A stretch of DNA of 64,000 bases from Kocuria rhizophila (GTDB lineage: Bacteria > Actinomycetota > Actinomycetes > Actinomycetales > Micrococcaceae): NCBI RefSeq assembly GCF_003667225.1, contig NZ_RCOM01000002.1, positions 1-64,000 on the forward strand, written 5' to 3'. A program made the translations under genes and the position numbers. Position 1 is the first letter of the stretch. Each line of letters opens with the position of its first letter. The notes beneath the pieces were generated by a model, which was not told the origin of the DNA, ran no database searches, and was given only the letters and a program-made list of their open reading frames with translations. Shown piece after piece: positions 30,747-45,773 of this stretch.

Positions 30747-30760
30747 CCGTGCGGCGTCGT
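30747..30760 (-). repeat. Dispersed 14-mer, copy 3
   Basis: Exact copy, inverted relative to copy 1, in the convergent gap; its last base falls on the stop codon of the 30760-31389 gene. Confidence 0.7.
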
Positions 30761-31389
30761 CAGCGCCCGGAGCTGGGAAGCCTCACCGTGCTGGTCAGCG
30801 CGGTGAGGCTCGGGCGGCGGGGCGTGGAGCTGAACCCGAAGTCCGGGGGAGGGGTCATGTCCGTGAGCGTGCCCAGGTCGTGGCCGCCCCACGTGGCGCG
30901 GGAGAACGTGATGGTGTGTAGGTCGTAGGCGGAGTACCACTCGGTGCGGCCGTTGCCCGCGGTGCCCAGGGTCTGCACGCCGGACATCACGTGCGGCGCC
31001 ACCAGGTTGGTGATCCGCGCGAAGGGCAGCGAGGTGCCCAGCGGCCGTGGAACCGACTGCAGCAGCAGACCGAGTGGCGCTCGTGGACCCACGCTGAACT
31101 GCCACGTGAGCGGTCCGGCGGTGACCGTCCAGCGGGAGGCGCGGGAGAACCCGGTGCGCTGCACGCTCACGGGAACGCGGGTGACGGTGTCGAAGGAGTA
31201 GGTGGCGGACACGAAGTCGGCCACCCAGTCGGTGGGGGCCAGCAGCTCACGGCGGCCGTCCGGGTGGGCGACCATGACGTCCGCGAACGGACCCTGCGGG
31301 GTGCGGTCCCAGCAGCCGAGCACCAGGCGCGTGCCGCCGGAGGTGCTGACGCCGGCGATGTGGCCGGTGAAGCGGTGGGTGTGGGTCAT
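30760..31389 (-). CDS. Conserved hypothetical protein
   Basis: The 209-residue frame starts at the ATG at 31389; the longer frame to 31608 runs back through the crRNA-like element and the cas3 upstream region and is unlikely. The protein has the feel of a beta-rich soluble domain (FTGHIAGVSTSGGTRLVLGCWD, ADVMVAHPDGRRELLAPTDWV, TVTAGPLTWQFSVGPRAPLG) and no signal peptide or membrane segment. The codon use and GC skew match its neighbours. I do not recognise its family function. It is divergent from the cas operon across 255 bases. Confidence 0.7.
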   Translation of the reverse strand: MTHTHRFTGHIAGVSTSGGTRLVLGCWDRTPQGPFADVMVAHPDGRRELLAPTDWVADFVSATYSFDTVTRVPVSVQRTGFSRASRWTVTAGPLTWQFSVGPRAPLGLLLQSVPRPLGTSLPFARITNLVAPHVMSGVQTLGTAGNGRTEWYSAYDLHTITFSRATWGGHDLGTLTDMTPPPDFGFSSTPRRPSLTALTSTVRLPSSGR

Positions 31390-31452
31390 GGGGTCAAGGG
31401 TAGTGAGCGCAGCAGTGAAACTACTGGTCAGGCTGTCGTACTGTGGTGGGCA

Positions 31453-31527
31453 GTTCCCCGCGGTGCGGGGGTGAGCCCGCTCTGGTTTTGACGTGCTCGT
31501 GCTCCCCACGCTGGTGGGGCTCAAGCG
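31453..31527 (+). ncRNA. crRNA-like element (pseudo-repeat, short pseudo-spacer, pseudo-repeat) upstream of cas3
   Basis: Two degenerate copies of the array repeat lie in tandem in the cas3 upstream region. The first (31453-31477) keeps the stem CCCCGC/GCGGGG and the 3' handle GTGAGCC. The second (31499-31526) begins GTGCTCCCC exactly and keeps the stem with a compensatory change, CCCCAC/GTGGGG. Counting one C as the last repeat base, the pseudo-spacer is 20 bases (31479-31498) against 32 in the array, a difference of two 6-base Cascade segments. Its first 14 bases, GCTCTGGTTTTGAC, match GCTCTAGTTTTTAC at 31559-31572 except at guide positions 6 and 12. It resembles CreR/CreA-type guide RNAs that direct Cascade to a promoter. 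Transcription is not shown. Confidence 0.8.
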
Positions 31528-31555
31528 GTTACCAAGGCCGGTGGAAAAAATGGGG

Positions 31556-31572
31556 AACGCTCTAGTTTTTAC
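31556..31572 (+). promoter_or_regulatory. Predicted Cascade target site in the cas3 upstream region
   Basis: AAC (31556-31558) serves as PAM, followed by GCTCTAGTTTTTAC, the 14-base partial match to the pseudo-spacer. The site lies 73 bases before the chosen cas3 start in an AT-rich stretch where the promoter should be (TAGTTT at 31563-31568 is a possible -10). Beyond position 14 pairing ends, so binding without cleavage is expected. Confidence 0.7.
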
Positions 31573-31644
31573 TCCAAATGTGTGTGAAGATGAATGCGCA
31601 TGGGGCAAGGGTGCTCCACCTCACTGACACGCATAGGAGACCCC

Positions 31645-34600
31645 GTGAAACTCACGATGGACGCCTGGCAGCTCTGGGCCAAGACTCCGTCGGAGCGCGC
31701 ACGGGGAGTGGAGGAACTGGGGGTGCGGGAGTGGCTGGCACTCATGCAGCATCTTCGTGATGCCGCGGACGTGGGGGAGCGGCTCGTCGCCGAGTGGCTC
31801 CCCGGGCAGCTGCAGGATCGTCTTGCAGGTATCTGTGGCGGTGACCTCGACCAGGCTGCTCGGTTGGTGGCTCTCCTCTGCGGTGTCCATGACATTGGCA
31901 AGGCGGACGTGGCCTTCCAGAGTCAGATCGACGGCTCCCCGGAGCACGGCTGGTTGTGGGACCAGGTGCGCTCCCTCCCCAGCTGTCCTCCTCACAGGGA
32001 CGGCGTGCCCGTGCCTAAGCCCCAGCACGCCGAGGTCTCAGATCTCATCCTGCGACGGTGCTTCGCCCAGATCGTCCCGGACGCGAACCCGGCTGCCATC
32101 AGATCCGTCACGGTCACCGCAGGGTGCCATCACGGCCGCCTGGGTGAACTGGGCCCCCTCACGGGGCCGGGCGGTGGGCGCGCGCACCAGCTGTCCCTCT
32201 GGCTGGACCGCCACGGAACGGCCTGGAGTCAGCTGTGGGACCAGATGGTCCACGACATCATGGATCGGACGAGAGCTCAGACCGTTCTTGAACAGCTCTT
32301 CCGCGCGGGGGGCCTGGGCATCGCGGACCAGATGATGCTGTGCGGTCTGGTGACCATGGCGGACTGGATTGCCTCCAACCAGGAACTCTTCCCACTCAGT
32401 GAGAGCGGGCGGCATGACAGCGATGGAACGCGCGCGGACAGGGCCCTCGAGCAGCTGAAGCTGACCCGCGCATGGGTGCCCGACGACGTCGTTGCGCCGT
32501 CTTTCCAGCGACGCTTCGGCTGGCCCGAGAGTGCGTCGCTGCGTCCCTGTCAGAGTGCTGCTGTCGAGGCTGCCACGACGTCGCAGGGCCCCCGCCTGGT
32601 CGTCATCGAGGAGGAGATGGGACAGGGGAAGACGGAAGCCGCGCTCATGGCGGCCGAGATCATTGCGGGCCAGCGTGGAGGCGGGGGAGTGGCGTTCGCA
32701 CTGCCCACCATGGCCACGGCGGACTCCATGTTCGCCAGGGTCAAGTCCTGGGTGGAAACCCTCGAAATGGATTCGAATGTCCCGCACTCCCTGTTCCTGG
32801 GCCATTCCCGGTCCTGGCTGGAGCCGCGGAACGAGAAGCTCATCCGGCAGACACGGGCAGTGGGCGCCCAAGGCGGCCAGAGCGTTGTCGCCCACGAGTG
32901 GTTCACGGGCAAGAAGGGGATGCTCGCGGAGTTCACGGTCAGCACCATCGACCAGGTGCTGATGGCTGCACTCTGCACCCGGTACGTGACCATGCGCCAC
33001 CTGGGTCTGGCGGGCAAGATGGTGATCCTGGATGAGGTTCACTCCTACGACGTCTTCACGTCCAGCTACATGGAGCGGACGCTGACGTGGCTCGCCGCGC
33101 ACGGGGTGTCCGTCATCCTGCTCTCTGCAACCCTGGCCTCCGGGCTGCGAGGTCAGTTGGAGGCCGCCTATCGCTCCGGGCTGGGGGCCAACCCACGACC
33201 GCATCTCGACTCCGCCCTTGGCCCAGTGGAGCCGCAGGTTCGAGGCAAACTGGCCGCAAAGGCGGGGACCGGGGGGCCTCGTGGCGCGGGAGAGGCCGTG
33301 GCGGCGGCGTCGGTCCCCGCCTATCCGCGGATCTCCGTCACTGGGTCGAGTGGTACGCACATCACCCCCATCACCCAGCGCGCGACGCACCGTCGCGTGC
33401 GGATGAACCTGGTGCCGGACGACCTCGAGAGTCTTGTCAACCTCGTGGCCTCGCTTGCCGAGGACGGCGGGGTGGTGGGGGTGGTGTGCAACACCGTTCG
33501 ACGTGCGCAGGAGGCCTACGGGCAGCTTGTGGAGCACTTCGGTGAGGACGTCGTGGAGCTGCACCACTCCCAGTTCACCGCCTGGGACAGGTCCGAGCGG
33601 GAGCACCGGCTGGTGGCCGAACTGGGCCCTGCGGCGCACCGTGGCACGGGAAGACCCGCGCGGCGGGTTCTCGTGGGAACGCAGGTGCTCGAACAGTCCC
33701 TGGACATCGATCTGGACCTCCTGGTCACGGACCTGGCCCCGGCGGACAGCCTGGCGCAAAGGGCCGGTCGGCTCCACCGCCATGAGCGGCCGGACGCGGA
33801 CAGGCCACGCGCCATGCGGGAGGCGCTGGTCTACATGCGGGGTGTGGATACCTCCGGGGGCCTGCCGGAGTTCGAGTCGGGGGCGGTGGGCATCTACGGG
33901 GATCGAGTCCTGCTGGCCACCTTCGCTGTCATGCAGCCGTACCTCTCCGGCGAGCCGTGGTGTCTGACCCACGAGCTGGAGTTCGTGGTCGAGGAGACCT
34001 ACCGGGGGGATCTTCGTGTCCCGGATTCCTGGCAGGACGTGTATGAGGCGGCGCGAGCGGAGGAAACCCAGAGAATGGCTGAAGCCCGGCACAAAGCGGG
34101 GACATTCCAGCTTGTAACGCCCGCCGAGAGCCGCGGTGACATGCGCCGCGCCCTCGAACGGATGATCGCCTCGGATCCGGACCGGAGCGATTCGCTGGCC
34201 GCGGCCCACGTGCGTGACATCGAGCCCTCTCTTGAGGTGCTCGTGGTGCAGGAACGGGACGGACTGCTGAGTCCGCTCCCATGGATCTTGCCGGGAGGAG
34301 CCGCGCGGGGAGAGTGGTTCCTCTCGGAAATGGCAGCGCCGCCTCCGCGCTTCGCTCGCGCCGTGGCCATGAGCACGCTGAGACTGCCGAGGTGGTTGGT
34401 GGCACCGTGGGAGCTCGACCGAGCCATCGCCGAGCTGGAGGCGCAGGGGATTCGGTCCTGGCAGGAGGACTTCCGTCTGCGGGGGCAACTCGTGATCCGG
34501 CTGGACGAGCAGCTGCGCGGGCGCATTCTGGGCAAGCCATTCGGCTACGACCGTGGGGTGGGGATCCACCGCGTGGAGGAGTCCGAACCGGTCGGTGGCC

Positions 34601-34662
34601 TTGTCGACGACTACGTAGATTTCGACGTGTGGGACACAAAGGAAGAAGAGGGATTTCGGTGA
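31645..34662 (+). CDS. cas3: CRISPR-associated helicase-nuclease Cas3 (type I-E)
   Basis: Cas3 is recruited by target-bound Cascade to nick and degrade invader DNA. The GTG at 31645 is chosen because AGGAG lies 5 bases upstream, giving 1005 residues; an in-frame ATG at 31594 would lengthen it by 17. The N-terminal HD nuclease has GVHDIGKADVAFQ (His/Asp near residue 82) and later CHHGRLGE. The helicase part has Walker A EMGQGKTEAALMAAE near residue 324, the DEVH box LDEVHSYDVF near 462, LLSATLASG, and TQVLEQSLDIDLDLLVTD with QRAGRLHRH. All active-site motifs are intact. The stop overlaps the cse1 GTG. Confidence 0.96.
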   Translation: MKLTMDAWQLWAKTPSERARGVEELGVREWLALMQHLRDAADVGERLVAEWLPGQLQDRLAGICGGDLDQAARLVALLCGVHDIGKADVAFQSQIDGSPEHGWLWDQVRSLPSCPPHRDGVPVPKPQHAEVSDLILRRCFAQIVPDANPAAIRSVTVTAGCHHGRLGELGPLTGPGGGRAHQLSLWLDRHGTAWSQLWDQMVHDIMDRTRAQTVLEQLFRAGGLGIADQMMLCGLVTMADWIASNQELFPLSESGRHDSDGTRADRALEQLKLTRAWVPDDVVAPSFQRRFGWPESASLRPCQSAAVEAATTSQGPRLVVIEEEMGQGKTEAALMAAEIIAGQRGGGGVAFALPTMATADSMFARVKSWVETLEMDSNVPHSLFLGHSRSWLEPRNEKLIRQTRAVGAQGGQSVVAHEWFTGKKGMLAEFTVSTIDQVLMAALCTRYVTMRHLGLAGKMVILDEVHSYDVFTSSYMERTLTWLAAHGVSVILLSATLASGLRGQLEAAYRSGLGANPRPHLDSALGPVEPQVRGKLAAKAGTGGPRGAGEAVAAASVPAYPRISVTGSSGTHITPITQRATHRRVRMNLVPDDLESLVNLVASLAEDGGVVGVVCNTVRRAQEAYGQLVEHFGEDVVELHHSQFTAWDRSEREHRLVAELGPAAHRGTGRPARRVLVGTQVLEQSLDIDLDLLVTDLAPADSLAQRAGRLHRHERPDADRPRAMREALVYMRGVDTSGGLPEFESGAVGIYGDRVLLATFAVMQPYLSGEPWCLTHELEFVVEETYRGDLRVPDSWQDVYEAARAEETQRMAEARHKAGTFQLVTPAESRGDMRRALERMIASDPDRSDSLAAAHVRDIEPSLEVLVVQERDGLLSPLPWILPGGAARGEWFLSEMAAPPPRFARAVAMSTLRLPRWLVAPWELDRAIAELEAQGIRSWQEDFRLRGQLVIRLDEQLRGRILGKPFGYDRGVGIHRVEESEPVGGLVDDYVDFDVWDTKEEEGFR

Positions 34663-36302
34663 GTGATCAGACATTCAACCTGTTGCGTGAACCATGGATT
34701 AAAGTGCGCCACAATGACGGGGTCGTGAGCGAGGTTGGACTCCTGGAGCTGTACGAGCGGGCTTCGGAGTTCACGGATCTCGCCGGTGAATCGCCCACTC
34801 AGGATCAAGCGGTGTTCCGGACTCTGGAGGCGGTTCTGATCCGCGCGCTGCGCTGGCACAACTTCTTCGCTCCGGGCTCCGATCCGGTCGAGGTCTGGGA
34901 AGACGTTCAGGGGGCGCCGGAGCTCGGTGAGCTGGTGGACAAGTACCTCGTCGAACAGGAAGCGCGGTTCGACCTCTTCGACCCCGTGGCGCCGTTCTTC
35001 CAGGTCGCGGATCTCCGAACGGCCAAGGGCGAGCACCCGGACGCCTCTGTGCTGATTCCTGACGTGGGGCCGGGGCTCTTCTCGACCTCGACCGCAGCGG
35101 CAGGACGTCGGCTTCCCACCGCCGTGGCCGCGCGGTGGCTCATCTCGACCCAGGCCTACGACATCTCCGGGATCAAATCCGGTGCCGTGGGTGATCCCCG
35201 AGTCAAGGGAAGCAAGGGGTATCCCATCGGCACGGGCTGGGCGGGAGCTATCGGTTCGGTTCAAATCCTGGGGCCGACGCTGCGGGACACATTGGTTCTG
35301 AACCTCCCGGTCGAGGAACTGCTCAGGGAATTCCAGGACATCGAGGCTGATCTCCCGCCGTGGGAACGCGCACCGAATGGCGCAGCGCCTCGCGCCGTGG
35401 AAGAGGTGCTGCCCGAGGGCGTGGTCGATGTTCTGACGTGGCAGCAGCGGAGAATACGCCTGTTCCCCAGCACTGACGGAAAATATGTTGAGGGTGTCCT
35501 GATCTGCAATGGGGACAAGGTCCAGCGGGCAAACAACTTTGCGGACCCCACCACGGCCTACAGATATTCGGTCGTTCAGTCGAAGAAGGCCGGTATGAAC
35601 GTCTTCTTCCCCAAGGCGCACGATCCTGAGCTGACGGTCTGGCGTGGGATCCAGAGCATCTTCTCGGAGGACGGCACGGAGCCGGGGCAGGACAAGAAGC
35701 CTGCCCTGGTGACTCAGCTCCGGACGGACCTCGCGTTGCCAATCGCCCAGAGATACGGGAAGGAACGCACGATGGTGCGGCTCACCGGTGTCAGCTACGG
35801 AACCCAGGACGCCGTCGTCAGCAGCGAGATCTCCGAGACCTACCCCGTCAACGTGCGGCTCCTGGGAGATGACGCAGGGCAGCTGCGGGAAACGGCAGTG
35901 CGGGTGATTCAGCGGGTCATGTCCTTCCGCGGCAGCATGTCGTGGTTCCACAAACAGCTGCTCGTCTGCGCCGGGGCCTCACCCGAGGAAGCGCCGACAG
36001 CACCCGTTCAGGCATGGCTGGCAGCACTCGAGACGGAGTTCGTGGAGTGGTTGAGCTACCTGGGGGACCTGCCCGATCCACGGGACGCCGAAGAGGAGTG
36101 GGCCCGCCGCATGGTCGCGGTGACTCGACGGTTCGTGGAGCAGGCCGTGGATGCGGCGGGGCCCCGTGCGGCTATCGGCCGCAGTGAACAGAGCGAGGTG
36201 GGAAAGATGATTCTGCACTCGTCCGCGCGGTACGAGGCGTGGATCATGTCGAAACTTCACGACAACCTGGAGATTTTGAAAGGAGAGGTGAGCACATCAT
36301 GA
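34659..36302 (+). CDS. casA: Cascade large subunit Cse1 (CasA, Cas8e)
   Basis: This subunit recognises the PAM and helps load target DNA onto Cascade. The GTG at 34659 overlaps the cas3 stop (GTGA) and gives 547 residues beginning SDQTFNLLREPWIKVRH, the usual Cse1 opening. Other family blocks are FRTLEAVLIRALRWHNFF, FDLFDPVAPFFQV, RWLISTQAYDISGIKSGAVGD split as normal, and GSKGYPIGTGWAGAIG near the PAM-sensing loop. The upstream part of the open frame belongs to cas3 in another frame. It is followed by cse2 with an ATGA overlap. Confidence 0.95.
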   Translation: MSDQTFNLLREPWIKVRHNDGVVSEVGLLELYERASEFTDLAGESPTQDQAVFRTLEAVLIRALRWHNFFAPGSDPVEVWEDVQGAPELGELVDKYLVEQEARFDLFDPVAPFFQVADLRTAKGEHPDASVLIPDVGPGLFSTSTAAAGRRLPTAVAARWLISTQAYDISGIKSGAVGDPRVKGSKGYPIGTGWAGAIGSVQILGPTLRDTLVLNLPVEELLREFQDIEADLPPWERAPNGAAPRAVEEVLPEGVVDVLTWQQRRIRLFPSTDGKYVEGVLICNGDKVQRANNFADPTTAYRYSVVQSKKAGMNVFFPKAHDPELTVWRGIQSIFSEDGTEPGQDKKPALVTQLRTDLALPIAQRYGKERTMVRLTGVSYGTQDAVVSSEISETYPVNVRLLGDDAGQLRETAVRVIQRVMSFRGSMSWFHKQLLVCAGASPEEAPTAPVQAWLAALETEFVEWLSYLGDLPDPRDAEEEWARRMVAVTRRFVEQAVDAAGPRAAIGRSEQSEVGKMILHSSARYEAWIMSKLHDNLEILKGEVSTS

Positions 36303-36931
36303 CCAAGACATCAGTATCGGTGCGCGAAGAAGAAATTACGCCGGGACCAGCGGCGAAGAAGAGAACGCTGGATGCCGCCGTCGGGACCTACGTCGCCGGA
36401 CTGCAGCGGGACTACCTGGGCGGGCGGGAGAGCTCCGCCCGGGCCACCCTGGCGCGGCTGCGTCAGGCCGTGGACGAAGCGCCCGGCGTCAACCCGGACG
36501 TGTGGCAGACAGTCCTGGAGATCCTTCCCGAGCAGTTCATCGGATCCCGGGACCAGCCGACAAAGGGTGAATGGGCGGCTCATTTGGCTCTCACGTTGTA
36601 CGGGGTGCACCAGCAGGGCAACAACACACCAATGCACGAGCCCGGGGTCACCTTCGGAACCGCGATGGGCAGGCTGATGCGTGAGCGTCCCTCGGCGAAA
36701 TCACGCTACGACGCCCTGCTGAGCGCCAGTCACTTCGCCGGACGCAGGAACTATCTGCGCAGCCTCACCGGGCTGCTCTCGACCGACGGGATCCCCGTGG
36801 ACCACGGCCGGTTGGCTCTGGACCTTTTCCGGCTGCAGAGCGCCGACCACAAGAACTCTGTGGTGCGGGTCTGGGGGCGTGACTTCTATCGCGCATTCGC
36901 CCACCGCGTCACCGAGAAAGCATCCGACTGA
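36299..36931 (+). CDS. casB: Cascade small subunit Cse2 (CasB)
   Basis: Cse2 is the small all-helical subunit that stabilises the displaced strand in the Cascade belly. The ATG at 36299 overlaps the cse1 stop, with AAGGAG just upstream, giving 210 residues. Family features are RDYLGGRESSARATLARLRQAV, WAAHLALTLYGVHQQGNNTPMH split by normal spacing, and the C-terminal ALDLFRLQSADHKNSVVRVWGRDFYRAF. An upstream frame to 36239 is a read-through of cse1. Confidence 0.93.
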   Translation: MTKTSVSVREEEITPGPAAKKRTLDAAVGTYVAGLQRDYLGGRESSARATLARLRQAVDEAPGVNPDVWQTVLEILPEQFIGSRDQPTKGEWAAHLALTLYGVHQQGNNTPMHEPGVTFGTAMGRLMRERPSAKSRYDALLSASHFAGRRNYLRSLTGLLSTDGIPVDHGRLALDLFRLQSADHKNSVVRVWGRDFYRAFAHRVTEKASD

Positions 36932-36957: not shown

Positions 36958-38100
36958 ATGACCACGTACATCGATTTTCATGCACTGCAGACCCTCGCCC
37001 CCAACAACATCAACCGAGGCGAGGACGGCGCCCCGAAAACGGCCTTCTTCGGTGGTGTGCAACGTCAGCGGATCTCATCGCAGGCCCTGAAAGCGGCTCA
37101 GCGACGCAGCTTCGCCGACTACCTGGACCGGTCGGAACTGGGAACTCGCACCAAGAGGGTCGTGGAGCTGGTCGCCCAGCGCATGGTGGAGATCGACTCC
37201 ACCGCAGACTACGACGATGCCCTGACATCGGCCGAGGCGGCATTCAAAAAGGCGGGCATCAATGTGAGTGCCCCCAAGGCCAAGAAGTCGGGCACCGAGC
37301 CCAAGGCACCAGCGGCGGGTTACCTGGTCTTCCTCGGCTACCACCAGGTGGACAGGTTGGCCCGCGTGCTCCTCGAGCGGGGGGAGGCCGGCTTGGCGAG
37401 CAAGAAAGAGGCTCAGGAACTCCTGGACACCGAGCACGCTGTGGACGTGGCTCTGTTCGGGCGCATGGTAGCGGAGGACGCCACGTTGAACGTCGATGCT
37501 GCGGTGCAGGTGGCACATGCCCTGGGCACCCATGCTGCGGTTCCCGATTTCGACTACTACACGGCCATCGACGAGATGGAGCGTCTCAACGAGCAGACGG
37601 GTGCGGGCATGATCGGCACCCTCGAGATGATGTCCTCCACGGTGTACCGCTATGCGACGCTCAACGTGGACCAGCTCGTGGCCAATCTCGGCAGCGTGGA
37701 CGCGGCCGTCCGTGCGGCGGAAGCCTTCGCAGCCACGTTCATCGAGAGCCTTCCGTCAGGGAAGCAGAACACATTCGCCGCGCATTCCTTGCCGGAGCTC
37801 GTCTCGGTGGCGGTCCGAGACCGTCGTCCGGTGAGCTACGTGAATGCGTTCGAGAAGCCGGTTGAGGTGGACGAAGGCGGCAACCGGCGAGTGGCTGCCA
37901 CGGCTGCGCTCGCGAGTGAGGCACAGGGTGTGGAGGACACCTACGGCATGTCGCCTCTGCACTCGTGGGTCATGACCGTGCCTGCGCTTCGTGAGAGCGC
38001 CGAGGGACTGGGCGAGAACGTCAACCAGAAGCGACTGGTGGAGGCTGTTGGAGAGGCTGTTCGGGAGGCCTCGGACGCTGGCGCCGAGGCCGCACGATGA
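36958..38100 (+). CDS. cas7e: Cascade backbone subunit Cas7e (CasC, Cse4)
   Basis: Six copies normally polymerise along the guide RNA, each thumb displacing every sixth nucleotide from pairing. The 380-residue protein starts YIDFHALQTLAPNNINRGEDGAPKTA in consecutive blocks and has QRQRISSQALKAAQRR, both hallmarks of Cas7e. It ends with MSPLHSWVMTVPALRES. A 26-base gap with AAAGGAAAA separates it from cse2, the only non-overlapping junction in this part of the operon besides cas1. Confidence 0.95.
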   Translation: MTTYIDFHALQTLAPNNINRGEDGAPKTAFFGGVQRQRISSQALKAAQRRSFADYLDRSELGTRTKRVVELVAQRMVEIDSTADYDDALTSAEAAFKKAGINVSAPKAKKSGTEPKAPAAGYLVFLGYHQVDRLARVLLERGEAGLASKKEAQELLDTEHAVDVALFGRMVAEDATLNVDAAVQVAHALGTHAAVPDFDYYTAIDEMERLNEQTGAGMIGTLEMMSSTVYRYATLNVDQLVANLGSVDAAVRAAEAFAATFIESLPSGKQNTFAAHSLPELVSVAVRDRRPVSYVNAFEKPVEVDEGGNRRVAATAALASEAQGVEDTYGMSPLHSWVMTVPALRESAEGLGENVNQKRLVEAVGEAVREASDAGAEAAR

Positions 38101-38801
38101 GTGTTCTGATCCTGCGTCTGAAGGGTCCGCAGCAGTCGTGGGGCACCTCGTCCCGCTACAGGACCCGCGAAGCCGGGACGGAACCCAGCAAGTCCGGCGT
38201 GATCGGTCTGCTCGCCGCCGCGCAGGGACGATCCCGCGCGAGTGAGCTGACGGATCTGCTCGAGCTGGGTTTCGGCGTGCGAGCCGATCAACCGGGTCGG
38301 CTCATGGTCGACTACCACACGGCACGGGTGCGCGGGGCCAAGAACTCCTCGCTGTCGTCGCGTCACTACCGGGTTGACGCCGCCTATACAGCCGCAATCT
38401 CTGGCCCGGACAGCCTAGTCGCCGCTTTGGCGGAAGCCATCGACTCGCCGCGTTTCCCGCTGTATCTGGGCCGGCGGGCGTGCCCCGCCTCGGTGGATTT
38501 GCTGGGCGGGGTGCTCCCGGGCGACGACGTCGAGGCAACCCTCCGGGACGTCGACGCCACTCCATGGCTGGCCTCCGATTGGTACCGCAGGGAAGCGGCG
38601 AAGGTCGTCTATTTGCCACTGGCCAGGGACGCCTGTGCTGACGAAGTTGGCGAAACGGTTCAGGACGTGCCCGTGAGTTTCGACCCCCGCCATCGACTCT
38701 ACGATGCCCGCGCCGTGGTGCGTCCGGCTCCTGTGATGATCGAGAATCCCGACGGCGTGGATGTTAAGGACGACTTCTTCCAGACAGTCAAGGAGGGCTG
38801 A
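38097..38801 (+). CDS. cas5e: Cascade subunit Cas5e (CasD)
   Basis: Cas5e caps the 5' handle of the crRNA. The 234-residue protein has the standard start SVLILRLKGPQQSWGTSSRYRTRE over two blocks, the SGVIGLLAAAQGR block and LYLGRRACPAS in the middle. The ATG overlaps the cas7e stop, and its own stop shares its last base with the cas6e ATG. Confidence 0.94.
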   Translation: MSVLILRLKGPQQSWGTSSRYRTREAGTEPSKSGVIGLLAAAQGRSRASELTDLLELGFGVRADQPGRLMVDYHTARVRGAKNSSLSSRHYRVDAAYTAAISGPDSLVAALAEAIDSPRFPLYLGRRACPASVDLLGGVLPGDDVEATLRDVDATPWLASDWYRREAAKVVYLPLARDACADEVGETVQDVPVSFDPRHRLYDARAVVRPAPVMIENPDGVDVKDDFFQTVKEG

Positions 38802-39490
38802 TGTACTTCAGCAGGATCCAACTCAATCCGCAGCGGCGTGAGTCCCGAAAACTGCTCGCCAACCCTCGGGCCATGCACGGCGCGGTCGAGGCGTGCTTCC
38901 CACCCGCCCGTGATGCTCAGGTGGGGGCCCGGAATCTGTGGCGCGTGGACGCAGACGGGGCAGACGTGCGGTTGTACATGGTGTCGCCTGACGTCCCGGA
39001 CATGCAGCACCTGGTGGAGAACGCAGGGTGGGAGAGTTCGCCAGCCGAGACCACTGACTACGACCGGTTCCTGGATGGTCTGAGGACGGGTCAGGAGTAC
39101 AGCTTCCGCGTGACGGTCAACCCTGTGAAGCGCCAGTTCGTTCAGGGACAGCGCGGAAAGCTCATGCCCCACCTCACCGAGGAGCAGCAACTGGCCTGGT
39201 TCCACGAACGTTCCTCCAGCTGGGGGTTTGAGACTCTCGATTTTCCCCAGCAACGGGAAATGCCGAACGAGGAGATCACCATCAAGTCGTTACGCGTGGT
39301 CAAGCGGCACGACCGGGTGTTCGGTAAGCAGGATGGCGACGGTCGACGGACGGTGACTCAGCGCCAGGTGACCATCGCGGGTCAGCTGCGCGTCACTTCC
39401 GCGGGCCTGTTGAGATCCCACCTGACGGGTGGAATGGGCCGGGGCAAGGCGTACGGGTGCGGACTGATGACGCTGGCCAGGGTCCGGTGA
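38801..39490 (+). CDS. cas6e: crRNA-processing endoribonuclease Cas6e (CasE, Cse3)
   Basis: Cas6e cuts the precursor at the base of each repeat stem and stays bound to the 3' hairpin. The 229-residue protein begins MYFSRIQLNPQRRESRKLL and contains the family start region HGAVEACFP, and the C-terminal glycine-rich RNA-binding loop GGMGRGKAYGCGLMTLAR. Its natural substrate is the stem CCCCGC/GCGGGG of the array, which the pseudo-repeats before cas3 also keep. Confidence 0.94.
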   Translation: MYFSRIQLNPQRRESRKLLANPRAMHGAVEACFPPARDAQVGARNLWRVDADGADVRLYMVSPDVPDMQHLVENAGWESSPAETTDYDRFLDGLRTGQEYSFRVTVNPVKRQFVQGQRGKLMPHLTEEQQLAWFHERSSSWGFETLDFPQQREMPNEEITIKSLRVVKRHDRVFGKQDGDGRRTVTQRQVTIAGQLRVTSAGLLRSHLTGGMGRGKAYGCGLMTLARVR

Positions 39491-39494
39491 CCTC

Positions 39495-40442
39495 GTGACT
39501 GGCGCTCCACCTCCGGAGAGCAGGGAGCTCGTCAGGGCGGAAGAACGGTTGTCTTTCGTGTACCTGGAGCGCTGTGTCGTGCATAGGGACAGCAACGCGA
39601 TCACTGCGACGGACGAGACTGGGACCCTTCACATCCCAGCTGCCATGATCGGTGCTCTGCTGCTGGGGCCCGGTACACGCGTCACTCATGCGGCCATGAG
39701 CCTGATCGGGGCCAGCGCGGCAAGCGTGGTGTGGGTGGGTGAGGGTGGTGTTCGGTGCTATGCGGCTGGCCGGCCCTTGGCCCGGTCAAGCCGACTCCTG
39801 GAGGCTCAGGCGAGGGCATTTGCCAATCAGCGGCAGAGACTGTCCATCGCGCGGCGAATGTACGAATACCGGTTTCCCGGCGAGGATGTATCCGCCCTGA
39901 CCATGCAGCAGCTTCGCGGGCGAGAGGGTGCGCGGGTCAGGCAGCTCTACCAGCGTGAGGCTGCGCGGACCGGTGTCGAGTGGGTGAAGCGGGACTACCG
40001 TCCCGGTGATCTCTCTGGGTCGGATCCGATCAATCAAGCTCTGTCCAGCGCCAACACGTGCTTGTACGGGGTGGTGACGGCTGTCATCCATGCTCTGGGC
40101 ATGAGCCCCGGGCTCGGGTTTGTCCATGTGGGGCACGACCAGAGCCTCGTCTACGACGTGGCGGACCTCTTCAAGGCAGAGACGACAATCCCGGCCTCTT
40201 TCGACGTGCTGGCCCAGGGCAGCGAAGATCCCGTGAATGACGTGAGAAGGCTTTTGCGAGATCAACTCGTCACCGGGCACGTGATGGATCGGTGCGTAGA
40301 TGTCCTGCGTGAGCTGTTCCTGAGCGCTGAAGAGCGGGAGGAAGTTATGCGAATTGTTTACGACGACGCCATGTCGCTGTGGTCTGGTCGGCGTGAAGGC
40401 CGCATGCCGACGGGGCAGAACTTCTCTCGGGAGGACTCATGA
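39495..40442 (+). CDS. cas1e: Adaptation integrase Cas1e
   Basis: Cas1 with Cas2 integrates new spacers at the leader end of the array. The 315-residue protein starts with GTG and follows the type I-E form: SFVYLERCVVHRDSNAI, HAAMSLIGASAASVVWVGEGG, the acidic site in LRGREGARVRQLYQREA, and GFVHVGHDQSLVYDVADLFKAE with the catalytic His and Asp. All catalytic residues are in place, so acquisition should be functional. Confidence 0.95.
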   Translation: MTGAPPPESRELVRAEERLSFVYLERCVVHRDSNAITATDETGTLHIPAAMIGALLLGPGTRVTHAAMSLIGASAASVVWVGEGGVRCYAAGRPLARSSRLLEAQARAFANQRQRLSIARRMYEYRFPGEDVSALTMQQLRGREGARVRQLYQREAARTGVEWVKRDYRPGDLSGSDPINQALSSANTCLYGVVTAVIHALGMSPGLGFVHVGHDQSLVYDVADLFKAETTIPASFDVLAQGSEDPVNDVRRLLRDQLVTGHVMDRCVDVLRELFLSAEEREEVMRIVYDDAMSLWSGRREGRMPTGQNFSREDS

Positions 40443-40795
40443 TCGTCTTGGTCCTCTCAGCCTGCCCGGTAGGGCTCCGTGGGGATCTGACGAAATGGCT
40501 GTACGAAGTCTCTGCCGGGGTTTTCGTAGGTAAAGTCAGTGCGCGGATTCGGGAGCACCTGTGGGAGCGAGTGCTGGAGTCATCTGGCTCGGGGCGGGCC
40601 ATCCTTGTATGGAATGCCAGGGGAGAGCAGGGCTTGACGTTCTCTGTCAAGGACCACCACTGGGACCCAGTGGATCTCGATGGGTTGACCCTGATGAAAC
40701 GCCCCTCGCGCACCAAGCCCCGATCTTCTCCCGAGCTCAGGCCGGGGTGGAGCAAAGCCGGTGCCCGTCGCAGGTTCGGCGACAAAAAGACCTGA
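40439..40795 (+). CDS. cas2e: Adaptation protein Cas2e
   Basis: The 118-residue protein is the type I-E form of Cas2, with VLVLSACPVGLRGDLTKWLYEVSAGVFVG (split around LRGDLTKW) and VSARIREHLWERV, then a basic C-terminal tail. It forms the central dimer of the Cas1-Cas2 integration complex. The ATG overlaps the cas1e stop by 4 bases. The array leader begins right after its stop. Confidence 0.95.
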   Translation: MIVLVLSACPVGLRGDLTKWLYEVSAGVFVGKVSARIREHLWERVLESSGSGRAILVWNARGEQGLTFSVKDHHWDPVDLDGLTLMKRPSRTKPRSSPELRPGWSKAGARRRFGDKKT

Positions 40796-40860
40796 CCGCA
40801 AAAGTGTCGAAGTCAAAGGAAAAACACCCCTCGGGGGACAATAACCCCTAGTCACCAAGT
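40796..40860 (+). promoter_or_regulatory. CRISPR leader
   Basis: The 65 bases between the cas2e stop and the first repeat are A-rich compared with their surroundings and hold a small CCCCTCGGGG-like hairpin and ATAACCCC. This position is where new spacers enter. No clear promoter pair was found; the array may be transcribed from here or by read-through from the cas operon. Confidence 0.7.
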
Positions 40861-43800
40861 GTGCTCCCCGCGCCTGCGGGGATGAGCCCCCTGGGGCGGC
40901 GCGGGTGATGCCGTTGTCCACGGTGCTCCCCGCGCCTGCGGGGATGAGCCGGATGCGGACTACACCGTGTTCATCCTGCTCATGTGCTCCCCGCGCCTGC
41001 GGGGATGAGCCCGCGTCAGCCTTGTTCACCAGCAGGGTGGTGTAGTGCTCCCCGCGCCTGCGGGGATGAGCCCATCTCCCGTGCTCTCCGTCCCACGTGT
41101 TCGCAGTGCTCCCCGCGCCTGCGGGGATGAGCCCCAGGTCCCGGGCCATGACCCGCAGGTTATCCCGTGCTCCCCGCGCCTGCGGGGATGAGCCGTGCAA
41201 GTTCGCGGACCCCGAGATGCGAGCCAAGTGCTCCCCGCGCCTGCGGGGATGAGCCCGGGCGGGCTGGCATCTTGTTCGTGCCCGCCTGGTGCTCCCCGCG
41301 CCTGCGGGGATGAGCCCTGTGCACGGCGCATGTAGAATCGGTCATAGCCGTGCTCCCCGCGCCTGCGGGGATGAGCCCTGGTACGTGCTCACCGACGTGG
41401 ACTTGTACCGGTGCTCCCCGCGCCTGCGGGGATGAGCCCTTCACCTGTAGGTACTGCGGAGCGAAAGCCCCAGTGCTCCCCGCGCCTGCGGGGATGAGCC
41501 CGGGAAAGAGATCGCGGCCATGTGGCAAGGGTGGTGCTCCCCGCGCCTGCGGGGATGAGCCCTGTGCCCACTGGGACGGCATCGCCCCGGCGTTGTGCTC
41601 CCCGCGCCTGCGGGGATGAGCCCGCCATGTCGAGGGTTTGGGTGGCTTTGTCGGAGTGCTCCCCGCGCCTGCGGGGATGAGCCCAGGGCGTACGTGCTGG
41701 ACCTGTACAACCCGGCGTGCTCCCCGCGCCTGCGGGGATGAGCCTCTCGCGCAGCTCGTCCTTCTTCAGGTACGCGGGTGCTCCCCGCGCCTGCGGGGAT
41801 GAGCCCTAGTGGCCGCAACGTACGACTACGACCAATGGGTGCTCCCCGCGCCTGCGGGGATGAGCCGGGTGCCGGTGCGGGCAGCACGGTCACCCAGGCG
41901 TGCTCCCCGCGCCTGCGGGGATGAGCCGGTTACGGCCCATCTGGTCCAGGTTCGCCTCAGGTGCTCCCCGCGCCTGCGGGGATGAGCCGTCCCGGAAAAA
42001 CATCGCCGCCGCCTTCGACGGGTGCTCCCCGCGCCTGCGGGGATGAGCCGGTGACCGCGTCGGGCCAGAAGGCATTGGAGGCGTGCTCCCCGCGCCTGCG
42101 GGGATGAGCCGCCTGGAAGTCAGCCATGGTCTAGTTCCTGTCCGTGCTCCCCGCGCCTGCGGGGATGAGCCCATCATGCTCCCACCATGGCACGCCACAC
42201 GCGAGTGCTCCCCGCGCCTGCGGGGATGAGCCGTACGCGCAACATCACCGTTCTCAAACTGGATAGTGCTCCCCGCGCCTGCGGGGATGAGCCCGTGACG
42301 GGGGCGATGTCCGCGGAGATCGTGCGGTGCTCCCCGCGCCTGCGGGGATGAGCCCCCATCGTGCATGTCGCGGACGTGGGTGGACCCGTGCTCCCCGCGC
42401 CTGCGGGGATGAGCCCTTCCTCGCGGACACCGCAGACATCTGGGGTCCGGTGCTCCCCGCGCCTGCGGGGATGAGCCCGTGCCGGTGAGGTAGTTGTTCT
42501 TCCCGTTGAGGTGCTCCCCGCGCCTGCGGGGATGAGCCGTCATCCGGCAGGGTCACACGGGCGTCATCCCCGTGCTCCCCGCGCCTGCGGGGATGAGCCC
42601 AGCGACACGGTCAAGATGTTCTGGACGGTCAAGTGCTCCCCGCGCCTGCGGGGATGAGCCGAAGAAGCCCACGATGGCCGGGACCCGATCCTGGTGCTCC
42701 CCGCGCCTGCGGGGATGAGCCCTCGGGTGGTGGGACCGCGCAGTGGGGTGTGTAGTGCTCCCCGCGCCTGCGGGGATGAGCCCTTCACCCCGTCACCCGC
42801 CTCACGTGCACCTCGGTGCTCCCCGCGCCTGCGGGGATGAGCCCCGACGCCGAGCTCTTCGCCAGCAGACACGGCCGTGCTCCCCGCGCCTGCGGGGATG
42901 AGCCCGGGGTCTCGTGGACGATCGGGAGGAGCCCCCCGTGCTCCCCGCGCCTGCGGGGATGAGCCCTGATGGGCTCCTTCACGGCATCCTTCAGCTTGGT
43001 GCTCCCCGCGCCTGCGGGGATGAGCCCGCCGGGAACGTCGAGGCATGGCCCAAGTTCGTGTGCTCCCCGCGCCTGCGGGGATGAGCCGGAGACCTCCGCG
43101 GATCATGAACGTATCCGCGAGTGCTCCCCGCGCCTGCGGGGATGAGCCGGCGGGCACGGCGCAGGCGGCGGCGGACGGGAAGTGCTCCCCGCGCCTGCGG
43201 GGATGAGCCGTTGCTCGCCCTGTCTGGGAGGAACCCGTCATGGTGCTCCCCGCGCCTGCGGGGATGAGCCCTTCTTGGGGTCCTTGCCAGCGGCGATGTA
43301 GTTGTGCTCCCCGCGCCTGCGGGGATGAGCCGCACTTCGGGGGGCTGGGCATCTCTGGCCAGGAGTGCTCCCCGCGCCTGCGGGGATGAGCCCGCGGACG
43401 CCAGATCGAGGGCGTACCCCGTGACGTGCTCCCCGCGCCTGCGGGGATGAGCCGATCCTTCTCCGCCTGAGCAATCGCCTCCCGACGTGCTCCCCGCGCC
43501 TGCGGGGATGAGCCGCTCCCCAACACGGCCCTGGTGTTGGCTGTGCAGTGCTCCCCGCGCCTGCGGGGATGAGCCCCCCGTGTCCACCAGCCACGACGGC
43601 TTCCCGAAGTGCTCCCCGCGCCTGCGGGGATGAGCCAACGATGCGGGGTCGGCGTCTCGGGCGATCAACGTGCTCCCCGCGCCTGCGGGGATGAGCCCCG
43701 CCACCGCACACGAGACTGCTCACGGTCGGCGTGCTCCCCGCGCCTGCGGGGATGAGCCCGGCAACTCCACCTCCGTGACGATCCACAGGTCGTGCTCCCC

Positions 43801-45773
43801 GCGCCTGCGGGGATGAGCCGACACCATCGCCCGGTGGATCAACCCCGCCACCGTGCTCCCCGCGCCTGCGGGGATGAGCCCCACGAAGGAGAACTGACCA
43901 TGGCAGCACAGGCGTGCTCCCCGCGCCTGCGGGGATGAGCCGGAGAACTTCGCGGAGGGCTTCTTCCGGTCCGTGTGCTCCCCGCGCCTGCGGGGATGAG
44001 CCGTTGCCCGGCACACGGGCGGTCTTCACGGTGCCGTGCTCCCCGCGCCTGCGGGGATGAGCCGGGCGCGGGGCACAAGGCGCGTGCGGCGACTGTGTGC
44101 TCCCCGCGCCTGCGGGGATGAGCCTCGGCTGATGGCCGTCGACAGGTTCGCGAGCGCGTGCTCCCCGCGCCTGCGGGGATGAGCCGCCCTGCCAGCGCAT
44201 CGACGTCGCCGACGAGGCGTGCTCCCCGCGCCTGCGGGGATGAGCCGTGGGAGCCCTCCGCGTCGAACTGGGCGCGGGTGTGCTCCCCGCGCCTGCGGGG
44301 ATGAGCCCAACCCGCCGCGAAGTCCCACGAGCGGGCTGAGGTGCTCCCCGCGCCTGCGGGGATGAGCCGCCCAGCGCGTTCGTCGTGCTGCTGGCGCTAG
44401 CGTGCTCCCCGCGCCTGCGGGGATGAGCCGCCCAGCGCGTTCGTCGTGCTGCTGGCGCTAGCGTGCTCCCCGCGCCTGCGGGGATGAGCCCGTGGACGCC
44501 GAGCCCGAAGACCTCGAGGAGTTGTGCTCCCCGCGCCTGCGGGGATGAGCCGGCGGCCTCGGTGGTCATGACCACGGGCGCGGTGTGCTCCCCGCGCCTG
44601 CGGGGATGAGCCGATCAACGACTTCTGGAAGGGCGACGACATCAAGTGCTCCCCGCGCCTGCGGGGATGAGCCCGCGTCCTTCAGCAGTCCCAAACCGGC
44701 CTTGAAGTGCTCCCCGCGCCTGCGGGGATGAGCCGGCGGGGATGGACAAGCCTGGTGGGGGTCTGCCGTGCTCCCCGCGCCTGCGGGGATGAGCCCGGTC
44801 ACGGGCTTCTTGCGGTACGTCTTGGGTTGGGCTCCCCGCGCCTGCGGGGATGAGCCGCGGTGGACGGGCAGGTGCAGCTGCAGCTGCCGGTGCTCCCCGC
44901 GCCTGCGGGGATGAGCCCCGCAGGGCAACCTGGTCGTTCTCGGCCAGGCTGTGCTCCCCGCGCCTGCGGGGATGAGCCTGCCCCGGATGCGGCGGGCGGG
45001 GTCCCTGGCCCGTGCTCCCCGCGCCTGCGGGGATGAGCCCTGGTCAGAGAGCGGAGATACGAGGATCACGGTGTGCTCCCCGCGCCTGCGGGGATGAGCC
45101 CGAGCGGAACTCGGCGGCGGCTTCCAGCGGCGAGTGCTCCCCGCGCCTGCGGGGATGAGCCGTCCGTGGCGCCGTGCAGCGCCCCGCCCTGGAAGTGCTC
45201 CCCGCGCCTGCGGGGATGAGCCCGCCCTACCCACCTCGGGGCGGGACAGCGCTGCGGTGCTCCCCGCGCCTGCGGGGATGAGCCGACGGTGCTCTCCAAC
45301 ACCTAGGCCGGGATTAAGTGCTCCCCGCGCCTGCGGGGATGAGCCGCTCGGCCCCGGCGTCCTCACCATCGGGGACAGGTGCTCCCCGCGCCTGCGGGGA
45401 TGAGCCCTTCCGGGCTTCCTCCAGGGTCTCCCACTCGGTGTGCTCCCCGCGCCTGCGGGGATGAGCCCGGAGCGCCGGGGGACTCACAGAACTCGAACGC
45501 GTGCTCCCCGCGCCTGCGGGGATGAGCCCCTCCCCTCCCTGCCCCGCGGCAAGAGTTCAAAGTGCTCCCCGCGCCTGCGGGGATGAGCCCCGTTGCCGGT
45601 CACGTTCCGTCAACGGCTCCCCGTGCTCCCCGCGCCTGCGGGGATGAGCCGAGACCACCGCCGCGCTCGCGGCGATCCGCCCGGTGCTCCCCGCGCCTGC
45701 GGGGATGAGCCCGGCGGGGGCGGTTTCGGCTTGGCCGTCGAGCTGGTGCTCCCCGCGCCTGCGGGGTTCGAAC
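40861..45773 (+). CRISPR. Type I-E CRISPR array, 81 repeats and 80 spacers
   Basis: The 28-base repeat starts GTGCTCCCCGCG, continues CCTGC and ends GGGGATGAGCC, forming a 6-base stem with loop GCCT. Counting start to start from 40861 to 45746 gives 80 intervals: 75 of 61 bases and 5 of 62, so spacers are 33 or 34 bases. Repeats are almost invariant; one at 44829 has a T-to-G change at base 2, and the last (45746) loses its 3' end after GCGGGG, marking the old end. The spacers at 44369-44401 and 44430-44462 are identical. Nearly every spacer begins with C or G, with only four beginning A or T, consistent with the last PAM base being captured as in type I-E systems. Confidence 0.98.

Follow-up and report, generated by a model that had tools for sequence, protein, structure and literature searches.

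A crRNA-like element upstream of cas3 in the type I-E CRISPR-Cas locus of Kocuria rhizophila is, judged from its sequence and with a probability of roughly 0.9, a creR gene, which would encode a CreR-type autorepressor aimed at its own cas upstream region. The window analysed is a stretch of 64,000 nucleotides (contig NZ_RCOM01000002.1, positions 1 to 64,000, forward strand). The original prediction had likened the element to CreR and CreA RNAs and set it apart as lying in an actinobacterial I-E locus. The likeness stands, both in anatomy and in the partial match to the cas upstream region. Regulators of the CreR class have been reported before, in I-B, I-E and V-A (PMC13131331), so the window element is not a first for subtype I-E.

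The I-E set in the window is complete, in the order cas3-cse1-cse2-cas7-cas5-cas6-cas1-cas2, and is accompanied by a large array:

31645 to 34662, plus strand: cas3 (TIGR01587, TIGR01596), first gene of the I-E operon and the predicted regulated gene
34659 to 36302, plus strand: cse1/casA (TIGR02547)
36239 to 36931, plus strand: cse2/casB (TIGR02548), from its first possible start
36958 to 38100, plus strand: cas7/cse4 (TIGR01869)
38097 to 38801, plus strand: cas5e (TIGR01868)
38801 to 39490, plus strand: cas6e (TIGR01907)
39495 to 40442, plus strand: cas1e (TIGR03638)
40439 to 40795, plus strand: cas2e (TIGR01873)
40861 to 45773, plus strand: CRISPR array of 81 repeats and 80 spacers, period 61 (75 times) or 62 (5 times)

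Array spacers measure 33 or 34 nt after the 28-nt repeat, equal to 32 or 33 after 29. The last repeat of the array is degenerate (23/28). The element and its target consist of the following parts:

31439 to 31444, plus strand: putative −10-like hexamer for creR, TANNNT type, proposed from sequence only, starting 11 nt upstream of psiR1
31450 to 31477, plus strand: psiR1, degenerate type I-E repeat, 18/28 against the array repeat, hairpin retained, 3' end GTGAGCC corresponding to the crRNA 5' handle
31478, plus strand: base 29 of psiR1, a C; 44 of the 80 array repeats share it
31479 to 31498, plus strand: guide (pseudo-spacer) of 20 nt, 12 nt less than the 32-nt array spacer, counting from after base 29
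31499 to 31526, plus strand: psiR2, degenerate repeat, 20/28 against the array repeat, handle gone
31556 to 31558, plus strand: PAM AAC, directly preceding the target
31559 to 31572, plus strand: target site, 12/14 match to guide positions 1–14, lying 73–86 nt before the cas3 start

The predicted arrangement of two degenerate I-E repeats around a 20-base pseudo-spacer before cas3 was thus recovered, except that psiR1 begins 3 nt before the earlier element start of 31453. The stem of psiR2 differs from that of the array repeat by one paired change (G-C to A-T). These repeats and the pseudo-spacer lie outside the array, beside the cas genes, and lack the conserved repeats and 32/33-nt spacers of an ordinary I-E array. 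A TANNNT hexamer started 9–22 nt before psiR1 in 10 of 26 loci from the survey described below, against a shuffle mean of 4.7, with 17 of 2000 shuffles equally high. A consensus promoter scan of the window's intergenic region predicted no promoter, the fold of the whole 77-nt element was no better than that of shuffles (z −0.65), and an Rfam search of 31300–31700 gave nothing near a gathering score, its single match reaching 10.7 bits. On the minus strand, a divergent ORF (30760–31389, inside the ORF 30760–31608) points away from creR, its likely ATG about 60 nt from psiR1.

The 12/14 match between guide and target was found as predicted, the only mismatches being at position 6 (G/A) and position 12 (G/T), and it is real in statistical terms. 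With positions 6 and 12 left free, the guide-target pattern has a single occurrence in the window and a single one in the genome, and 100 shuffles contained none; a shorter seed pattern with AAS likewise has one genomic occurrence. The chance expectation for an AAN-preceded match of this kind in a 560-bp region is 5.6e-7. The window guide gave a run of 14 in its own region, whereas the best among 38 other regions was 6, and none of 1000 shuffles reached 14. The AAC before the target had been said to agree with the PAM deduced from the array, and this also stood: of the 80 bases at position 29 after the array repeats, 44 are C, 32 G, 3 T and 1 A, which suits a PAM of AAC or AAG. Phage protospacers did not add proof. 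When most of the array (40820–44900) was compared with phage records, 12 records were returned, the best match of each at 60–80% identity, and no usable protospacer was among them; these matches were rejected as protospacers, as they resemble repeat or low-complexity matches.

To place the element among its relatives, Cas3 homologues were drawn from relatives, family, class and order, giving 131 cas3-upstream regions, the window's own among them. Each genome contributed a single region: 35 came from the family and 4 from others, 40 from 44 additional genomes of the order and 52 from 56 additional genomes of the class. A second set, limited to 60 further regions, brought the total to 191, all of them actinobacterial. 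The detector in the first scan consisted of the crRNA handle and the preceding stem only and yielded 100 candidate guides in 66 loci; a match was an AAN-flanked site in the candidate's own region with mismatches permitted only at positions 6, 12 and 18. Runs of at least 8 in the own region were obtained with 28 of the 100 candidates, compared with 12 of 4000 swapped guides. The final detector, applied to all 191 regions, combined the handle with psiR2 at an offset of 12 to 49 and identity at positions 1–5. It gave 262 candidates, of which 29 matched at no fewer than 12 of 15 paired positions (swapped guides, 3/10480) and 37 at 10 or more (swapped, 101/10480, so that chance may account for two or three of them). 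In the second set, 5 of 27 candidates matched, against 5 of 810 swapped guides, and all five PAMs were AAC. When targets were sought without a PAM filter, 16 of 17 carried AAN (9 AAC, 6 AAG, 1 AAT) and the remaining one TAC, a count of non-array targets from which the tandem arrays of L139, L163 and L172 (19 rows) were removed. In these other loci, guides of unrelated sequence match their own upstream regions; as in the window, the targets precede cas3, and their distance from it varies.

Most regions gave no match: a candidate at 11 or more was found in 32 of the 191 with the final detector, and about 14 more came only from other scans. No creR-like element was detected in two congeners, L057 and L058, whose Cas3 is 48–49% identical. 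First-scan matches that are absent from the final detector are L065, L072, L084, L100, L102, L111, L117 and L123 (8 of 28); also absent are L061–L064 and L067, which came from another scan, and L223 of the second set. In all of these but L102 and L062–L064 psiR2 was scored, and there it fell below the threshold. The 28-pair, TANNNT and psiR2-length tables omit L068, which duplicates L066, and L102, which is close to L101, and L061 stands for L061–L064 in the 28-pair table. Matches in L071, L088, L181, L150 and L203 are marginal and are not claimed.

Of 31 non-duplicate loci, 25 had guide and target on one strand, whether creR pointed toward or away from cas3, a bias that may reflect how creR arises. 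In L066, L068, L070, L072, L073 and L084, creR is on the opposite strand between target and cas3, and a cas transcript begun at the target would therefore cross creR antisense. Another Kocuria locus, L056, has a 32-nt creR-like guide at −206 from cas3 that matches the cas3-cse1 gap (target at +2900, minus strand, AAC, run 11) and not the cas3 upstream region, in a scan where array guides gave a few such runs by chance.

The matches follow the pairing footprint of Cascade, in which every sixth base does not pair (PMC13122317, PMC5904413). When mismatches were allowed at the phase {6, 12, 18}, 16 of the 100 candidates had a run of at least 11 and 11 had a run of at least 13; the six other phases gave 2–5 and 0, respectively. 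In an equal-weight search, 17 positions were scored alike and 32 loci reached 11/17 or better; a few of these are chance, since swapped guides do so in 3.8% of cases, and L066 is one base out of register in this search. The match fractions at positions 1–11 were 1.0,.91,.88,.94,.91,.28,.97,.91,.72,.91 and.84, those at positions 12–18 were.34,.75,.75,.69,.72,.56 and.28, and beyond 18 the values were.22–.47. The match is thus at background at 6, 12 and 18 across loci, in agreement with the earlier statement that positions 6 and 12 are unpaired in I-E Cascade. Such selection for pairing, together with drift at the flipped-out bases, is hard to explain unless the RNAs act in Cascade. Position 6 is not wholly neutral, however, because E. 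coli off-target Cascade sites match there in 45% of cases, above chance (PMC5904413). In the second set, 3 of 5 pairs matched at position 6 and three targets had A there, where about 25% and mostly A had been predicted.

The target base at position 6 (31564 in the window) is A in 19 and G in none of the 28 pairs, 12 of which have C as the guide base there; among the 31 non-duplicate loci, the target has A in 17 and G in none. A mismatch at guide position 9 recurs: it is present in 10 of the 31 non-duplicate loci and, over the several scans together, in L061, L084, L090, L094, L098, L109, L117, L119, L125, L146, L189, L191 and L225. Such pairs match further at positions 13–17 (mean 4.2 of 5, compared with 2.8), which is in part ascertainment.

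Alignment of homologous loci had been proposed as a check on whether guide and target change together, and co-change was observed in the aligned sets L187/L188 and L131/L226 versus L133. In L187/L188 (one genus), position 3 is T in one locus and C in the other, in guide and target alike, while position 6 is mismatched in both and differs between them. L131/L226 and L133 (also one genus) differ at positions 1, 4 and 5, where guide and target have changed together within alignable flanks; at positions 6 and 12 the guide is altered and the target unaltered. Between L066/L068 and L070, guide and target are both replaced and the flanks are conserved. L101 and L102 share their first 20 guide bases, and their targets over positions 1–14 differ at position 6 only. 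Taken with the own-versus-swapped comparisons, this co-change supports, at the level of sequence comparison, the proposal of a guide RNA through which Cascade would repress its own operon. The co-change is seen in relatives; the nearest orthologue of the window, in K. tytonicola, has its upstream region missing. Its cas3 contig (genome G015, 70–71% identity) begins inside cas3, for which reason this locus (L055) was left out of the survey, and a further contig (L054) agrees with the flanking gene of the window over 38 nt, after which it diverges, and it stops with no element present. An alignment of the window with L094 as homologous sites was set aside as a hint only, the flanks aligning too poorly.

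Guide length was found to vary between loci in classes. The final detector gave lengths of 20 (19 loci), 21 (4), 26 (1), 32 (10), 33 (2) and 13 (1) in 37 loci, the 13-nt guide being probably spurious. psiR2 played no part in the first scan and was afterwards placed by a repeat matrix at offsets of 12–49. This placement gave 20 (10), 21 (5), 26 (1), 30 (1), 32 (7) and 33 (5) in 29 loci, with 6 of the 29 psiR2 scores no better than those of shuffles. Lengths that fall outside the classes (12, 18, 40 and 42) came from four candidates for which there was no target. The prediction of six-base steps was set down before the second set was collected, and the five matches of that set had guides of 20, 32, 20, 20 and 21 nt; the values for L223 (20) and L191 (32) are weak because the psiR2 score is poor in L223 and barely adequate in L191. 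L131 and L226 are 96.6% identical over a 2494-nt alignment, and an indel of 12 nt separates their pseudo-spacers, which are 20 and 32 nt long. Their guides begin at about 1377 (L131, plus strand) and about 1465 (L226, reverse complement), and the element is otherwise conserved.

One Cas7 covers six guide bases, and CreR-loaded Cascades may thus lose whole Cas7 footprints. We give an even chance to the reading that actinobacterial I-E CreRs, the window guide among them, have discrete guides of 20/21, 26 and 32/33 nt shortened by whole 6-nt Cas7 footprints, mostly two. These would form a dedicated smaller Cascade with about four Cas7 subunits, whose R-loop would stop short of the Cas3-recruiting state, giving a stoichiometry-coded repressor beside the full-length defence complex. 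The literature searched contained no account of CreR guides whose lengths step by six bases, which does not establish that none is in print.

The proposed mechanism is as follows. creR would be transcribed toward cas3, and Cas6e would cut the transcript at the two degenerate repeats. The product would be a crRNA-like RNA with a 20-nt guide, loaded into Cascade. The complex would bind the AAC-flanked site 73–86 nt before cas3 through positions 1–5, 7–11 and 13–14, with bases 6 and 12 flipped out. Bound Cascade would block transcription of the cas operon, with too few paired bases to license Cas3. Array crRNAs would compete for Cascade, so that cas expression would rise when free Cascade is scarce. 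The loop described for CreR is of the same form: Cascade that is free takes up CreR and turns off its own operon, a repression relieved by array crRNAs (PMC12737573).

The claim that partial pairing favours binding without Cas3 cleavage agrees with published thresholds. In E. coli, I-E Cascade binds from as little as 5 bp and interference or priming needs more than 18 bp (PMC5904413), and the 12 paired bases of the window fit binding without cleavage on these thresholds. According to the same source, local expression in E. coli did not respond to Cascade bound at off-target sites, which counts against repression by the window element. Guides of 20–24 nt in the I-B system of H. hispanica repress without interference or priming, 20 nt being weaker than 21–24 (PMC10989794). 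Cas3-mediated degradation persists, markedly reduced, in I-E Cascades whose spacers have been shortened by 6 or 12 (PMC7296934); these were engineered, whereas the window guide is natural, 12 shorter, and of limited complementarity besides. Since they retain some Cas3 activity, it is the short pairing, and not the short guide alone, that should keep the locus safe.

CreR RNAs of I-B, I-E and V-A are crRNA-like, partially complementary to the cas promoter and autorepressing (PMC13131331, PMC12948488, PMC12737573), as the product of the window element is predicted to be; the window element differs in being actinobacterial and in its 20-nt guide. Two of the features by which a CreR is recognised are present in the window, namely two diverged repeats with a short pseudo-spacer, and a seed that is complementary, to a limited extent, to a PAM-flanked site upstream of cas; a further one, guide-target co-evolution, is seen in relatives. 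The primary CreR paper reportedly appeared in Cell Host Microbe in 2023. In Francisella, scaRNA is likewise a crRNA-like RNA from ectopic repeats and Cas9 a catalytically active effector serving as a repressor, but that system is type II and its target is a lipoprotein operon (PMC9458426).

An addiction module like CreTA (I-B in haloarchaea, I-F in Acinetobacter), in which the guide would repress a small toxin RNA gene between target and cas3 and not cas3 itself, is improbable here. CreA has the identical anatomy of two diverged repeats. In I-B its seed is 1–5 and 7–11, and mutation at 6 or 12 is tolerated while mutation at any other of the first twelve positions is not (PMC8501985). The I-F CreA also has a 20-nt guide, with 17 bases paired, but is said not to obey the canonical seed rule (PMC10097628). 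CreA represses a toxin gene, whereas the next gene in the window is cas3. The gap between target and cas3 is only 72 nt and holds no ORF of 60 aa or more, though it might still accommodate a tiny RNA toxin; a short plus-strand ORF from 31578 reads through AGG-AGA and overlaps the cas3 start, but AGG-AGA is likely the cas3 ribosome-binding site, and the varied target distances upstream of cas3 in other loci also speak against a toxin gene.

That the element is a decayed mini-array, its repeats dead and its match to the promoter region a product of chance or a self-acquired spacer with no present function, is very improbable. Such a relic would suit the degeneracy of both repeats and the failure to detect an element in the two congeners. 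It does not suit the high match at paired positions and the background match at 6, 12 and 18 in other loci, with positions weighted equally, nor the co-change in homologous loci and the paired change by which the psiR2 stem stays paired. We consider least probable, and only barely credible, an antisense or leader RNA that pairs with cas mRNA independently of Cascade. Both creR and target are opposite to cas3 in 10 of the 28 pairs, and such RNAs could pair with the cas leader; in 13 of the 28, the window included, the cas coding strand carries both guide and target, and the RNA, having mRNA sense, cannot pair with cas mRNA. Cascade features are, moreover, apparent in the six-base period of the mismatches, in the PAM, in the crRNA handle and in the six-base length steps.

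With the element read as a CreR-type autorepressor, what began as a suspicion from a single window becomes a case that spans multiple loci and can be tested, in which a CRISPR effector would regulate the genes that encode it. Pairs of guide and target amount to a natural mutagenesis of Cascade pairing, in which 6, 12 and 18 are free, 1–5, 7–8 and 10–11 are kept, and 9 is semi-tolerant. Guide length is the less expected result, and the length classes, which could surprise a specialist, predict natural Cascades with altered subunit number. If confirmed, such guides would be templates for gene repression by an intact native I-E system.
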